Source: Flavobacterium branchiicola
Lineage (GTDB): Bacteria > Bacteroidota > Bacteroidia > Flavobacteriales > Flavobacteriaceae
NCBI RefSeq assembly: GCF_018383905.1
Contig: NZ_JAGYWA010000001.1
Coordinates: 62,001-126,000 of the forward strand
Length of the DNA stretch: 64,000 bases
Reading direction: 5' to 3'
Under the pieces are notes generated by a model. It did not search any database, was not told where the DNA came from, and worked only from the letters and a program-made list of their open reading frames with translations. Below, in pieces: positions 4,329 through 42,849 of this stretch. Position 1 is the first letter of the stretch, and each line of letters begins with the position of its first letter. Position numbers and translations under genes: made by a program.

Positions 4329-4399
4329 CACGGGCGGAGGGATTCGAACCCCCATCAACGGTTTTGGAGACCGCTATTCTACCCTTGAACTACGCCCGT
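4329..4399 (-). tRNA. trnW: tRNA-Trp (anticodon CCA)
   Basis: A full cloverleaf can be drawn on the minus strand. The seven-base acceptor stem pairs 4393-4399 with 4330-4336, the T loop carries GGTTCGAATCC, and the anticodon loop reads CTCCAAA with CCA in the centre. The 3' CCA is not encoded. It lies between tuf and secE, a conserved location in many bacteria. Confidence 0.96.
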
Positions 4400-4402
4400 A
4401 AT

Positions 4403-4442
4403 TAAAGCCAGTGACTTCAGTTAAGAAAATCCACTGGCTTTT
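4403..4442 (-). terminator. Hairpin between tuf and tRNA-Trp
   Basis: Arms at 4403-4413 and 4432-4442 are perfectly complementary over at least ten base pairs, 16 bases after the tuf stop. On the minus strand the stem is followed by only a short TTT before the tRNA begins. This may act as a leaky terminator or an RNA processing structure that separates tuf mRNA from the tRNA-Trp-secE-nusG transcript. Confidence 0.6.
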
Positions 4443-4457
4443 ATAGTTTTTATAGGA

Positions 4458-5645
4458 TTAACCTACGATTTCAGTTACCTGACCTGCACCTACAGTTCTA
4501 CCACCTTCACGGATAGCGAAACGTAAACCTACGCTCATTGCGATTGGGCTTAATAAAGCAACATTGATAGTCAAGTTATCTCCTGGCATTACCATCTCTA
4601 CTCCTTCTGGTAAAGTAATAACTCCTGTTACGTCAGTTGTACGTACGTAGAACTGTGGACGGTAGTTATTGTGGAATGGAGTATGACGTCCACCTTCTTC
4701 TTTTTTCAAGATATAAACCTCAGCTTTGAAAGTAGCGTGTGGTTTTACTGATCCTGGCTTAATGATAACCATTCCTCTTTTGATAGATTCTTTATCAATA
4801 CCTCTTAACAATAAACCTACGTTATCTCCAGCTTCACCTCTATCAAGGATTTTACGGAACATCTCAACTCCTGTAATAGTAGAAGTTAATTTATCAGCTC
4901 CCATACCAATGATTTCAACTGGATCTCCTGTATTAGCAATACCTGTTTCGATACGACCTGTAGCAACAGTTCCACGACCAGTAATTGTAAATACGTCTTC
5001 AACCGGCATCAAGAATGGCTTAGCTACGTCACGCACTGGCTCTTCGATCCAAGCATCAACAGCTTCCATTAATTCAATGATTTTTGGTACCCAAGCAGGA
5101 TCATTATTCAATCCTCCTAAAGCAGAACCTTGAACTACAGGACCATTATCTCCATCATATTCGTAGAAAGATAATAAATCTCTAATTTCCATTTCAACAA
5201 GCTCTAACAATTCAGCATCGTCAACCATATCCACTTTGTTCATGAAAACAACGATTCTTGGAATACCAACCTGACGACCTAAAAGGATGTGCTCACGAGT
5301 TTGTGGCATTGGACCATCTGTAGCAGCAACTACTAAGATAGCTCCGTCCATTTGAGCAGCACCAGTAACCATGTTCTTTACGTAATCCGCGTGACCTGGA
5401 CAGTCAACGTGAGCGTAGTGACGGTTAGCAGTTTCGTACTCTACGTGTGATGTATTAATAGTAATACCTCTTTCTTTCTCCTCTGGAGCGTTATCGATTT
5501 GATCAAACGATTTTGCTTGACAGTAACCAGCATCAGACAATACTTTTGTAATTGCAGCAGTTAATGTAGTTTTTCCGTGATCCACGTGTCCAATTGTACC
5601 TATGTTTAAGTGCGGTTTGGAACGATTAAAATTCTCCTTTGCCAT
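4458..5645 (-). CDS. tuf: Translation elongation factor Tu
   Basis: This 395-residue GTPase delivers aminoacyl-tRNA to the ribosome. The P-loop GHVDHGKT spans residues 19-26, the G3 motif DCPGH is near 80-84, and the G4 motif NKVD near 135-138. Domains 2 and 3 follow, ending in [15 protein letters not shown]. Length and motifs are normal. It lies downstream of tRNA-Thr/Tyr/Thr on the same strand, matching the tRNA-tufB arrangement known from enterobacteria. Confidence 0.99.
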
Positions 5646-5700
5646 TTTACTTAATTTTTAATCTTAGTTATATATTAATTTTCAATTTCCTACTTACTTG

Positions 5701-5772
5701 AGCCAATGTCGGGAATTGAACCCGAGACCTCTTCCTTACCAAGGAAGCACTCTACCCCTGAGCTACACCGGC
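5701..5772 (-). tRNA. trnT: tRNA-Thr (anticodon GGU)
   Basis: A 72-base cloverleaf on the minus strand: the acceptor stem pairs 5766-5772 with 5702-5708 using two G-U pairs, the anticodon loop reads TTGGTAA with GGT, and the T loop holds GGTTCAATTCC. It is the tRNA nearest to tuf, 55 bases upstream of its start. CCA is not encoded. Confidence 0.95.
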
Positions 5773-5814
5773 AGAGTTTTAATTTTAGATTTCAGACTTA
5801 CGAAATCAAAATTG

Positions 5815-5895
5815 TGGGGAGAGCAGGATTCGAACCTGCGAAGTTCACACAGCAGATTTACAGTCTGCCCTCGTTGGCCGCTTGAGTATCTCCCC
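5815..5895 (-). tRNA. trnY: tRNA-Tyr (anticodon GUA)
   Basis: An 81-base class II tRNA with a long variable arm. The acceptor stem GGGGAGA (5889-5895) pairs with 5816-5822, the anticodon loop CTGTAAA contains GTA, and the T arm contains GGTTCGAATCC. It lies between the two tRNA-Thr genes. Confidence 0.95.
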
Positions 5896-5947
5896 TATTT
5901 TATCAATAATTGCATGAACAATTTCAAATCGCATTTGAAATATTTAG

Positions 5948-6021
5948 AGCCGGCGGAGGGACTCGAACCCACGACCTGCTGATTACAAATCAGCTGCTCT
6001 AGCCAACTGAGCTACGCTGGC
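5948..6021 (-). tRNA. trnT: tRNA-Thr (anticodon UGU)
   Basis: A 74-base cloverleaf: acceptor stem GCCAGCG (6015-6021) pairs with 5949-5955, the anticodon loop TTTGTAA contains TGT, and the T arm has GGTTCGAGTCC. It is the first gene of the tRNA-tuf transcript. Enterobacterial clusters at this place carry a tRNA-Gly between Tyr and the second Thr; none is present here. Confidence 0.95.
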
Positions 6022-23577: not shown

Positions 23578-24429
23578 TTACTTTTTACTTTTCAAAAATT
23601 CAGCAAACTGTTTAGTATCAAAATAAAATGGTCTAACGGCAGTAATTTTTCCATTCTTCAAATCAAAATGCTCTGATATGGGTACGGACATTGTTTTTCC
23701 GGACTTCTTAGCTTTACAGCTTATGGTGAAATAAATAATTACTTCATTTTTGGAAGCATCACTAAAATAGGTCGGTTCTTTTTCTATTTGCAAATCAAAA
23801 AACTCACCTGATTTTGTAAACATTTTAGTCCATTCACTAAAACCAACATATGTTCCGCCATAAGGCAAACCAATAGCCTGATTATAAACGGCACCATCTT
23901 CAATTAAAGTTGCCATCGTATTAAAATCTCTTGTTTTAAATAGACATTCATAATACTTTGCAACCACACTAAGATTCTCTGTTTCCAGATTTTTAAGAGT
24001 ATCAGCCTCTGATAATGTTGCAGTAGTATCCCAAAAACTAATAATCTTACTAACTTGCCCTTTTCCGTTTAATCGGGCAAAGTCCCTGCCAGCCATTATT
24101 AACTTATTTTTTGAATCCAGAATTTTCCATTCCCAGGTTACATAATTATCTTTTACAATTTTAGCTCCTGATGTTAATACAGCATCCGGATTCTTTTTGT
24201 AAAACTCATTTATAACATTGTTAAAGGGAATAATTCCTTTTATAGAAGCCGAAGGATCTTCAAAAGTACTATCGTCTAACCAAATCGATTTAATCAATTT
24301 TAATCTGGCATCGCTATTTTTTTCCTGCCATACTTTCTCATATGCGGTAACAGGATATAATTTATCTTTCTTTTGAGCAAAAAGACCATTTAGCACGAAA
24401 AGGAAACAAACAAAGTAAATTTTTCTCAT
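23578..24429 (-). CDS. Exported protein with two NTF2/SnoaL-like domains
   Basis: This 283-residue protein has a signal peptide (about 1-18, ending LFAQ). Two similar alpha/beta halves are seen: about 27-135 (YEKVWQEKNSDARLKLIKS) and about 150-278 (VVAKYYECLFKTRDFNTMA), each with the long N-terminal helix and curved sheet pattern of SnoaL/NTF2-like folds. Such domains bind small molecules or serve as scaffolds; no catalytic residues could be assigned. The fold call is from pattern only. Confidence 0.6.
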   Translation of the reverse strand: MRKIYFVCFLFVLNGLFAQKKDKLYPVTAYEKVWQEKNSDARLKLIKSIWLDDSTFEDPSASIKGIIPFNNVINEFYKKNPDAVLTSGAKIVKDNYVTWEWKILDSKNKLIMAGRDFARLNGKGQVSKIISFWDTTATLSEADTLKNLETENLSVVAKYYECLFKTRDFNTMATLIEDGAVYNQAIGLPYGGTYVGFSEWTKMFTKSGEFFDLQIEKEPTYFSDASKNEVIIYFTISCKAKKSGKTMSVPISEHFDLKNGKITAVRPFYFDTKQFAEFLKSKK

Positions 24430-33785: not shown

Positions 33786-34226
33786 ATGAAAAAATTATTT
33801 ATGGCAGTTTTGTTATTCATTGGAGTAGCAAATTTTGCACAAGACGCCACTCAAAAACCAACTGGAGATCAAAAAGAAAGATTAACTCCGGAGCAACGTA
33901 ACGAAAAACATCTGAAAAAATTAACAACTGAGTTAAATTTAGATGCCAACCAACAAGCACAGGTTAAACAACTTTTGGCTGACAGAAGTGCTAAAGCAGA
34001 AAAATTTAAAGAAGCACGTAAAGACAAAAAAGACAGTGGAGTAAAACCAACCGCAGCCGAAAAAGAGGCCTTTAAAAAAGAAGTAATGGCTGAAAGAGAT
34101 GCCAATGATGCTAAAATGAAATCAATTCTGAATGCTGACCAATACACAAAATGGAAAAAAATTCAGGAAGAGAACAAAGACAAAGCAAAAGAAAAAATGA
34201 AAGAATACAGAAAAGAAAACAAATAA
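33786..34226 (+). CDS. Periplasmic Spy/CpxP-like helical protein
   Basis: This 146-residue protein has a signal peptide (MKKLFMAVLLFIGVANFAQ) and a lysine- and glutamate-rich helical body. LTPEQRNEKHLKKLTTELNLDANQQAQV resembles the LTxxQ-type repeats of Spy/CpxP chaperones, and a second copy-like segment MKSILNADQYTKW is near the C-terminus. The role is likely envelope-stress related, an inference. It is a single-gene unit with a bidirectional terminator. Confidence 0.7.
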   Translation: MKKLFMAVLLFIGVANFAQDATQKPTGDQKERLTPEQRNEKHLKKLTTELNLDANQQAQVKQLLADRSAKAEKFKEARKDKKDSGVKPTAAEKEAFKKEVMAERDANDAKMKSILNADQYTKWKKIQEENKDKAKEKMKEYRKENK

Positions 34227-40749: not shown

Positions 40750-40799
40750 TCTAAAGATTTCTTATTTAATTAAAAATGAGAACATTAAATTTTAAATAT

Positions 40800-41339
40800 A
40801 TGAAAACATTCAAATTAGTACCCGTTTTTCTGCTTTTACTTCTTGTAGCGTCATGCGATACCATCAGTGTTTATTCTGATTATGACAAAAACGTAAATTT
40901 TGCACCTTATAAAACTTATGCCTTTTTTAAGCCGGGGATTGATAAGGTTGAGATTTCTGATTTGGATAAAAGACGTATTCTTCGTGCCATAGACGATCAA
41001 ATGGCAGCTAAAGGATTTACTAAAAGCGAGAATCCTGATTTATTGGTAAATATTTTTACAAAATCAAGAGAGCAAATAGATGTAAACCAATTTAACGCCG
41101 GTTGGGGTTATGGATGGGGATATGGATGGAATCCTTACATGATGTACGGAGGAACAACTACTGTTTCCAGCTCTACTGAAGGAACTTTGTATATTGATTT
41201 AATTGATGCTAAAAAGAAAGAAATGATCTGGCAAGGTGAAGGTGTTGGTACTTTGACCAAAAACGTTGATAAAAAAGACGAAAAAATAGCCGAATTTGTG
41301 GGCAAAATTTTAGCTCAATATCCTCCGGTAAAAAAATAA
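40800..41339 (+). CDS. DUF4136 lipoprotein
   Basis: The ATG at 40800 gives 179 residues starting with a lipoprotein signal (MKTFKLVPVFLLLLLVASC). The DUF4136 pattern is visible in FAPYKTYAFFKPG and in the C-terminal STEGTLYIDLIDAKKKEMIWQG. A tyrosine- and glycine-rich stretch (about 100-118) is unusual. It lies 50 bases after hutU and is probably co-transcribed, and it precedes the ilvA leader region. Confidence 0.85.
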   Translation: MKTFKLVPVFLLLLLVASCDTISVYSDYDKNVNFAPYKTYAFFKPGIDKVEISDLDKRRILRAIDDQMAAKGFTKSENPDLLVNIFTKSREQIDVNQFNAGWGYGWGYGWNPYMMYGGTTTVSSSTEGTLYIDLIDAKKKEMIWQGEGVGTLTKNVDKKDEKIAEFVGKILAQYPPVKK

Positions 41340-41344
41340 TTAAT

Positions 41345-41352
41345 TACATTTG
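41345..41352 (+). promoter_or_regulatory. Candidate -7 box for the ilvA leader transcript
   Basis: TACATTTG matches TAnnTTTG exactly and lies 19 bases before the leader peptide ATG, giving a predicted start near 41359. No TTG box was found 17-23 bases upstream. Transcription could also come from the gene before it. Confidence 0.5.
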
Positions 41353-41371
41353 TTGTTCAAATAAGTTAAAA

Positions 41372-41431
41372 ATGACAAACTTTAGTAACATTATTATCGC
41401 TATTATCAGCATTATTGCAATTCAGCAATAA
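41372..41431 (+). CDS. ilvL: Isoleucine-rich leader peptide of ilvA
   Basis: A 19-residue open frame, MTNFSNIIIAIISIIAIQQ, has eight isoleucine codons between 41390 and 41422, and ends at TAA 41429-41431. It is too short for usual gene finders. It sits 173 bases before ilvA, the threonine dehydratase of isoleucine synthesis, and just before a hairpin set that behaves as an attenuator. The symbol is by analogy with the leader peptide of enterobacterial ilv operons; a small hydrophobic membrane peptide is a less likely alternative. Confidence 0.75.
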   Translation: MTNFSNIIIAIISIIAIQQ

Positions 41432-41500
41432 TGGCGAGGTGTTATATAAATAAGTAAAATATAATTTATAAAGACCTCCCAATTGGGAGGTCTTTTTATT
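41398..41500 (+). promoter_or_regulatory. Transcription attenuator of ilvA
   Basis: Three alternative structures are seen. A leader hairpin pairs 41398-41406 with 41428-41436. An antiterminator pairs 41436-41440 with 41474-41478 and, past a bulge and a mismatch, 41445-41451 with 41464-41470. A terminator pairs 41471-41480 with 41485-41494 and is followed by T residues. The antiterminator uses the left arm of the terminator, so they exclude each other. A ribosome at the leader stop would cover 41436-41443 and favour termination; one stalled at the isoleucine codons would favour read-through. Confidence 0.75.
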
Positions 41501-41505
41501 TAAAT

Positions 41506-41584
41506 CGCCACGAATTACACGAATTGGCACTAATTTAGTCATACTAAATAAAAATAATTCGTGTTCATTTGTGCAATTCGTGGC
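41506..41584. repeat. Imperfect inverted repeat with GCCACGAATT ends
   Basis: The left arm starts GCCACGAATTACAC at 41507 and the right arm ends GTGCAATTCGTGGC at 41584. The centre, TAGTCATACTA, is also palindromic. Related elements lie at 46665-46780 and, as one arm, at 55328-55350. It lies between the ilvA attenuator and the ilvA start. Confidence 0.75.
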
Positions 41585-41604: not shown

Positions 41605-42849
41605 ATGAATTTATTTAACGAAGTACTTAATGCCAAAAAGCAACTCGAAAATGTAGTTGCTGCTACTCCACTAACTCAGAATTTAAATCTTTCAGACGAA
41701 TTCGAGTCTACTATTTTATTAAAAAGAGAAGATTTGCAAATTGTAAGATCATATAAAATCAGAGGAGCTTATAATAAGATTTCTTCGTTAACTGATGCTG
41801 AAAAACAAATTGGTGTAGTCTGCGCCAGTGCAGGAAATCATGCACAAGGAGTTGCTTATTCCTGTAATCTTCTTAAAATAAAAGGCAAGATCTACATGCC
41901 TAAAACAACTCCAAAACAAAAAGTAAAACAAGTACAATTATTCGGAAAATCGTTTGTTGAAATTGTACTTACAGGTGATACTTTTGATGACGCTTACGCA
42001 TCGGCAACGGCAGACGCGATCAAAAACCACAAAATATTTATTCATCCTTTTGATGATGAAAAAGTAATTGCCGGTCAGGGAACTGTTGGCTTAGAAATCC
42101 TTGAAAGTTTTAAAGAACCAATTGATTATGTTTTTGTCCCGATTGGCGGCGGCGGACTTGCTTCTGGTTTATCAGAAGTTTTCAGGCATTTAAGTCCGAG
42201 CACAAAAATTATTGGTGTTGAACCAAAAGGTGCACCATCTATGAAAACTTCCATCGAAGAGAATAAAAATACGGCTCTAAAAACAATAGATAAATTTGTA
42301 GATGGCGCCGCAGTAAAACAAGTTGGTGATATGACTTTTGAAATCTGCCGATATAATCTTGAAGATATTATTTTGGTTCCCGAAGGAAAAGTCTGCACCA
42401 CTATTTTGCGTCTTTACAATGAAGAAGCAATGGTCGTAGAACCTGCAGGAGCTTTAACAATTGCTGCATTAGACTTTTATAAAGACAAAATTAAAGGTAA
42501 AAATGTGGTTTGTGTGGTAAGCGGAAGCAATAACGATATTGAAAGAACTGCCGAAATAAAAGAACGTTCCCTACTTTATGAAGGTTTAATGCATTATTTC
42601 ATGATTCAGTTTCCACAGCGTCCCGGAGCTTTGAAAGAATTTGTAAACAACATTTTAGGTCCCGATGACGATATCACTTATTTTCAGTTTGCAAAGAAAA
42701 ACAGTCGCGAAGTTGGTTCTGTTGTTGTAGGTCTGGAATTAAAAAACAAAAATGATATCATGCCAATTAAATTAAAAATGACTGAAAATGGTTTTGAGTT
42801 TCAGTATTTAAATGATAATCAGGATCTTTTTACACAATTAATAGGTTAA
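41605..42849 (+). CDS. ilvA: Threonine dehydratase, biosynthetic
   Basis: The ATG at 41605 gives 414 residues; earlier in-frame codons run into repeat DNA. It deaminates threonine to 2-oxobutanoate for isoleucine synthesis. The PLP lysine is K51 in VRSYKIRGAYNKIS, and the GGGGLASGLSE phosphate loop is present. A C-terminal ACT-like domain (about 325-414, with FPQRPGALKEFVNNILG) suggests feedback control. The upstream attenuator supports the biosynthetic role over a catabolic one. Confidence 0.93.
   Translation: MNLFNEVLNAKKQLENVVAATPLTQNLNLSDEFESTILLKREDLQIVRSYKIRGAYNKISSLTDAEKQIGVVCASAGNHAQGVAYSCNLLKIKGKIYMPKTTPKQKVKQVQLFGKSFVEIVLTGDTFDDAYASATADAIKNHKIFIHPFDDEKVIAGQGTVGLEILESFKEPIDYVFVPIGGGGLASGLSEVFRHLSPSTKIIGVEPKGAPSMKTSIEENKNTALKTIDKFVDGAAVKQVGDMTFEICRYNLEDIILVPEGKVCTTILRLYNEEAMVVEPAGALTIAALDFYKDKIKGKNVVCVVSGSNNDIERTAEIKERSLLYEGLMHYFMIQFPQRPGALKEFVNNILGPDDDITYFQFAKKNSREVGSVVVGLELKNKNDIMPIKLKMTENGFEFQYLNDNQDLFTQLIG

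Follow-up and report, generated by a model that had tools for sequence, protein, structure and literature searches.

Ribosome-mediated attenuation is established in enterobacteria, where the trp, his, ilvGMEDA and leu operons are controlled in this way. The unit upstream of ilvA in Flavobacterium branchiicola that is described here has several features in common with these attenuators, namely a leader peptide rich in the end product of the pathway, alternative protector, antiterminator and terminator structures (at ilvA partly predicted by folding) and a biosynthetic gene downstream. It differs from the enterobacterial attenuators in that it uses Ile codons only, precedes a lone ilvA gene, matches no Rfam family and is known from its sequence alone. 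Two further differences are the 5' leader, which is probably short, and the phylum, the Bacteroidota, which is said to lack Shine-Dalgarno sequences (PMC6847099).

In Flavobacterium psychrophilum, "strong clues" for leader-peptide attenuation have been described upstream of amino-acid biosynthesis operons, and conserved 5' elements have been named at pheA and hisG (PMC9723704). These elements come from the same genus as the ilvA unit and point to the same kind of leader-peptide control, although "ilv" does not occur in the main text of that paper and section 19 of it makes no mention of tandem units. From the same phylum, Bacteroides thetaiotaomicron has small ORFs (sORFs) within its long 5' UTRs that are described as reminiscent of attenuation leader peptides (PMC7366714). 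The example given there is a hypothetical gene, and neither "ilv" nor "isoleucine" appears in that article. Attenuators in tandem have been described for Salmonella mgtCBR, where they respond to different signals, ATP and proline (PMC3641672). A literature search, conducted mostly in journals open without subscription, found no report of an attenuator of ilvA or of a tandem isoleucine attenuator in Flavobacterium. What is new here is the ilvA unit; the attenuation mechanism and the leader-peptide clues in F. psychrophilum are already known.

The isoleucine-rich leader of ilvA

In the window, the whole stretch of 64,000 nucleotides that was analysed, a leader peptide ORF at 41372–41431 on the plus strand encodes MTNFSNIIIAIISIIAIQQ in 19 codons, followed by TAA at 41429–41431. 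Eight of the 19 codons specify Ile (six ATT and two ATC), the last of them at 41420–41422. The frame and its number of Ile codons agree with the preliminary description of this DNA, and the ORF is also found in relatives. A Bacteroidetes-type -7 promoter element, TACATTTG, is located at 41345–41352 (plus strand), 19 nt 5' of the leader ATG; its consensus is TAnnTTTG, as quoted in PMC6847099. Transcription of the leader would start at about 41357–41360, some 12–15 nt 5' of the leader ATG. The next gene is indeed ilvA (41605–42849, plus strand), encoding a threonine ammonia-lyase of 414 aa, for which the NCBIfam models NF006390 and TIGR02079, both above cut-off, agree with the Pfam matches PF00291 and PF00585. 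On the other side of the leader lies a DUF4136 gene (40776–41339, plus strand; Pfam PF13590).

The antiterminator at 41436–41478 (plus strand) stands as earlier described. It consists of a G+C arm, in which GAGGT (41436–41440) can pair with ACCTC (41474–41478), and an A+U helix, and the stretch 41432–41478 folds with -9.4 kcal/mol (z -3.27). The intrinsic terminator (41470–41500, plus strand), found by a consensus scan and by folding, comprises an 11-pair stem at 41470–41495 and a T-rich tail, and the stretch 41465–41500 folds with -18.9 kcal/mol (z -5.33). Terminator and T run are thus present, but the stem extends by a further base at either end beyond the 41471–41494 first given. In the same way, antiterminator and terminator do overlap and would exclude each other, but the stretch that they share is 41470–41478 and not 41471–41478. 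The minimum free energy fold of the whole ilvA leader contains a third element, a predicted protector structure at 41385–41445 (plus strand), with the pairs 41385–41392/41438–41445 and 41397–41400/41434–41437 and an inner hairpin 41410–41418/41425–41433.

The start of ilvA at 41605 is 109 nt 3' of the terminator stem. Between the two, a repeat with inverted ends GCCACGAATT/AATTCGTGGC (41507–41584, strand undefined) was read from the sequence, and it is not taken as a component of the switch. Repeats like it were also read 5' of ilvA at L173 and, in several copies, at L221.

A chance test was made with a caller whose hits had to combine a terminator with an ATG frame no more than 60 nt upstream, 30 codons long or shorter, with five or more Ile codons and an Ile share of 35% or higher. 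On both strands of the window this caller gave one hit, the ilvA unit, and it gave none when a single strand of each of 60 dinucleotide-shuffled 64-kb windows was searched. The caller also flagged a Lys-rich frame at 34132–34200 (plus strand) and a Leu-rich frame at 23592–23654 (minus strand) before terminator-like sites, both of which are probably due to chance. Searched against Rfam with gathering scores as cut-off, the whole window yielded only a Flavo-1 RNA (RF01705, 27803–27880, 78 bits), the function of which is described as unclear in PMC9723704, and four tRNA genes (4329–6021, minus strand). At this score no family was found at the ilvA leader, T-boxes and metabolite riboswitches included, and the enterobacterial leader RNA families had no match in the window.

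Conservation and spacing at ilvA in the genus

Comparison with other Flavobacterium genomes, which the preliminary description had proposed as a check, spoke for its interpretation and showed that the Ile-rich frame, the antiterminator, the terminator and the promoter element are conserved jointly. The genus sample consisted of 150 genomes, of which 60 had a full-grade ilvA match, and upstream DNA was tabulated for 58 of these, all but G031 and the contig-edge G116. At 35 of the 58 loci, an Ile leader with a terminator is positioned directly 5' of ilvA; this count includes L045, where the frame is degenerate and runs through the antiterminator arm. At 14 further loci ilvA follows ilvC and has no separate unit (KARI_C was found in all four of these loci that were tested, the remainder being called by reading), and at five (G070, G030, G056, G046 and G105) it stands behind ilvN2 under a double attenuator, the unit being 1–2 genes upstream. 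These arrangements qualify the earlier view of a switch acting on a lone ilvA. Loss of the leader with ilvA kept had been named beforehand as evidence against the switch, and it is mostly absent. It was read at L035 and L036, where ilvA and the terminator are kept with neither leader frame nor antiterminator arm, and at L013, where the unit is gone and no antiterminator arm was seen, to which the degenerate L045 may be added; one locus (L042) is cut short by its contig.

A second set, which overlaps the genus sample, comprised 80 ilvA loci of Flavobacterium and near records; contigs of equal length occur in both, among them those of L013 and L173. The unit was directly 5' of ilvA in 78 of the 79 evaluable loci (77 called by script and L221, from F. 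hydrocarbonoxydans, by reading), L223 being cut by a contig end; no ilvA unit was found for F. araucananum in this set. Across unique ilvA leaders, TAnnTTTG or a near form is located 16–22 nt 5' of the ATG in 96 of 97. The Ile share is 44% in 75 unique leader ORFs, Met1 excluded. The distinct variant codons of the ilvA leaders differ 39, 61 and 61 times at positions 1, 2 and 3, and the codon changes are 24 synonymous versus 78 nonsynonymous (12 versus 17 in the Ile columns), counts that do not by themselves prove coding of the leader.

The same leaders were compared by folding. Whole-leader folds of 89 unique ilvA leaders formed the terminator in every case and sequestered the antiterminator arm upstream, with at least three of the five arm bases paired, in 83. 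For the antiterminator, 75 of 79 unique ilvA sequences had at most 5% of shuffles (of the 5' part) as good as the original, and in 78 of the 79 the antiterminator fold made at least four pairs to the left arm of the terminator. A classical three-way switch between protector, antiterminator and terminator is therefore predicted at the ilvA leaders by these folds. When 22 ilvA terminators were compared, 98.3% of cells were paired, against at most 72.7% in slid versions. Covariation among them is in the right direction and thin, with two pairs changed on both sides in three cells, because the letters of the terminator and the arm are nearly invariant within ilvA loci.

The distance between the Ile codons and the antiterminator was determined for 85 unique ilvA leaders with frame and spacer, in 79 of which the arm motif was matched; the six unmatched leaders are four in which GGGGT was read where the arm normally lies, L219 with a shifted arm and the degenerate L045. 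Counted between the first bases of the last Ile codon and of the arm, the spacing among the 79 leaders is 16 nt in 78 and 15 nt in one, and the 16 nt are also kept in three ilvA leaders whose stop codon is 3 nt earlier. A folding-based distance gave 13 nt for 75 of 88 leaders, 13 instead of 16 because most ilvA leaders gain an outer pair when folded. The constant spacing at ilvA is partly a matter of shared ancestry.

Tandem units before ilvN2 and leaders of other pathways

The RNA core of the ilvA unit was made into a model, R1, and used for searching genomes. In the same genome, R1 found a second site (L104; contig C31:351285–351358 and the next ~130 nt, minus strand, E 1.4e-5), where two leaders, MKNLINIVSIIIIIIIG and MKKAVQHNIIISIIIIRIT, each ending in a stop, precede ilvN2, a homologue of the acetolactate-synthase small subunit (PF10369). 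Two Ile leaders in series, each with its own terminator, are present in all 19 loci examined. These loci were chosen from the R1 hits, 14 before a lone ilvN2 and five before longer operons, which are ilvN2-ilvA in L109 (G030), L110 (G056), L114 (G046) and L115 (G105) and ilvB2-ilvN2-ilvA in L108 (G070). At L235, the first of the two frames runs past the antiterminator arm. An ilvN2 homologue was found downstream by blastp in 19 of 19, as the first long frame in 18 and as the second in G070, with low similarity in L109, L110, L114 and L115 (34–41% over 92–96 aa). The ilvN2 antiterminators beat 95% of shuffles in only 7/19 and 7/19 loci for the two leader types, and they pair with the left arm of the terminator in 18/19 and 19/19. 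The tandem-controlled ilvN2-ilvA and ilvB2-ilvN2-ilvA operons resemble an acetolactate synthase unit linked solely to isoleucine. As in mgtCBR (PMC3641672), two leader ORFs and two attenuators are arranged in series, but in the ilvN2 tandem both leaders are isoleucine-rich. Within the finding as a whole, this tandem arrangement was less to be expected than the ilvA unit, and it is possibly a new variant.

According to Pfam, the tandem-attenuator operons of L108, L109, L114 and L115 likewise have a DUF4136 gene in front of them. The occurrence of this gene both before ilvA and before the tandem operons suggests that ilvA and ilvN2, where they stand alone, derive from a single operon that has since been split. 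In an IlvA gene tree of 56 rows, used solely for placing G112, this genome with its single unit nests among the tandem loci as the sister of G030; the drawn root is meaningless because the row of G052 is a wrong frame.

The hairpin in front of ilvA could be a mere terminator of the upstream DUF4136 gene, the Ile-rich frame then being a coincidence and the promoter of ilvA lying further downstream. Such a role can exist, since at L035 and L036 a terminator was read directly 3' of a DUF4136-like gene with no leader frame. For the unit as a whole this explanation is very unlikely, given the promoter-like element that stands 5' of the leader in nearly all unique leaders, the joint conservation of leader and antiterminator and the related units before ilvN2 at loci with other genes upstream.

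Leaders followed by terminators were also identified in the same genome before ilvD (Ile/Val; L060), hisG (a His run; L099) and pheA (Phe/Tyr; L100). In relatives, they occur at 21 of 28 ilvD loci (Ile/Val; L096–L098 left out), at 28 of 28 hisG loci (His) and at 27 of 28 pheA loci (Phe/Tyr), and at these three genes the antiterminator arm lies inside the leader ORF. A crude automated screen of other genera recovered Ile/Leu/Val leaders before ilvD at 14 of 29 loci. In the pheA leaders, one position can be followed across the antiterminator arm, the shared strand and the terminator arm: 14 leaders have A-T-A and eight have G-C-G, so that 22 of the 27 are concordant, these states being sequence counts and not independent events. 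Two of the remaining leaders have G-U there, two differ elsewhere (G-U pairing still being possible) and one is unmatched by the pattern. The pheA leaders appear, from their sequences, to be a clearer test of the pairing than the ilvA terminators.

An ilvA-type RNA core, with a leader that mixes Ile and Val codons, is also present at L111 (G116, contig C73); behind it come a gene for a class IV aminotransferase, regarded as ilvE-like, and then an IlvD-like frame. No leader with a terminator was found upstream of L238, one of the three aspartokinase/homoserine dehydrogenase genes of the genome. At E <= 0.01, R1 has matches in 70 of 299 Flavobacteriaceae genomes, but outside the two Flavobacterium genomes G000 and G060 the matches are weak, 1.2e-4 at best, and none of them was counted as ilvA-type. 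The match in G208 is just 5' of its ilvD, and L113 (E 1.2e-4) showed on inspection no Ile leader and no ilvN2-like gene. With E <= 0.5, R1 matches 149 of the 150 genus genomes, so the weak matches are mostly noise.

The codons of the leaders fit the gene behind them (Ile at ilvA, Ile/Val at ilvD, His at hisG and Phe/Tyr at pheA), which was counted in favour of ribosome-mediated attenuation. An attenuator that works as a T-box or riboswitch, or through an RNA-binding protein, in place of a translating ribosome is slightly less probable still than a terminator of the DUF4136 gene. Its one attraction is the A+U-rich stretch TTATATAAATAAGT...ATACAATTTAT, which seems more conserved than pairing alone requires; against it, no Rfam family reaches its cut-off at the ilvA leader, and ligand binding needs no codon content that tracks the pathway from gene to gene.

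Ribosome-mediated attenuation also bears on the spacing in these leaders. By folding, the antiterminator of the ilvA, both ilvN2, ilvD, hisG and pheA leaders starts 12–19 nt from the control codon, which was chosen as the last of its run. This method can report nothing below 12 nt, and in 23 of the 28 hisG leaders another His codon follows 6 nt after the chosen one. The corresponding distance in the ilvD leaders of other genera is 13–20 nt. For the two ilvN2 leader types, it is 15–16 nt in 14/19 and 18/19, the stops being mostly 6 and 12 nt away. From stop codon to control codon, the distance varies from 3 to 42 nt across the leaders (6–42 nt in ilvN2, ilvD, hisG and pheA). Such a pattern would be expected if the switch is set by the stalled ribosome rather than by the stop codon. 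A similar spacing is known from the trp leader of E. coli.

Proposed mechanism and its meaning

The ilvA unit is, with high probability, a ribosome-mediated transcription attenuator of ilvA that senses charged isoleucine tRNA. Its sequence elements, their conservation and their spacing are direct observations. Several features of a classical attenuator are found at ilvA: an Ile-rich leader ORF and an intrinsic terminator before the gene, from sequence and folding, and, from the spacing, a control codon so placed that the antiterminator would stay clear of a ribosome stalled there. Two others, an antiterminator that excludes the terminator and a protector pairing that keeps the gene off when there is no translation, are predictions. 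With ample isoleucine, the ribosome would get to the stop codon and cover the arm from 41436, and the terminator would form. When Ile-tRNA is short, the ribosome would stall on the Ile codons and open the protector, and the arm would be left free; the antiterminator could then form and ilvA would be transcribed. If the leader is not translated, protector and terminator would both form and ilvA would be off. The three alternative pairings used in this scheme are those predicted by folding, while we infer where transcription starts, that the leader is translated, that ribosomes stall on it, that transcripts terminate in vivo and that ilvA responds to isoleucine.

The least probable alternative is that the leader acts mainly on translation, by reinitiation at the ATG overlapping its stop codon (mini-ORF MARCYINK, 41430–41456), and not on termination: an ATG overlaps the stop or closely follows it in 32 of 34 tabulated ilvA leaders (29 overlapping, three at +5), but it is absent in L031 and L038, the ilvN2 units that were read do not keep the mini-ORF frame, and the terminator forms in all of the whole-leader folds. 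The mini-ORF after the stop was rejected as a main feature on the same grounds. The SD-like GAGG/GGAG arm was considered as an anti-SD decoy and also rejected, because the arm letters vary among leaders (GAGG, GGAG, GGGG, GGGA, GAG and AGGATTGT).

For Flavobacterium as a whole, we lean slightly towards a wider view, in which isoleucine synthesis would be run by copied attenuator cassettes made of one RNA core with exchangeable leader peptides. These would include a double version, with two isoleucine sensors in series guarding ilvN2, ilvN2-ilvA or ilvB2-ilvN2-ilvA, which may respond more sharply than a single one, and the fixed spacing would imply close timing of ribosome and polymerase in a phylum whose translation initiation does not use Shine-Dalgarno pairing. 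The ilvA unit provides a concrete and testable isoleucine switch for ilvA in the Bacteroidota, in which little was found on leader-peptide control. With the set of leaders at ilvA, the ilvN2 tandem, ilvD, hisG and pheA, ribosome-polymerase coupling without Shine-Dalgarno sequences would become testable by simple reporters, and the ilvN2 tandem is a natural case for the role of two sensors of the same amino acid in series.
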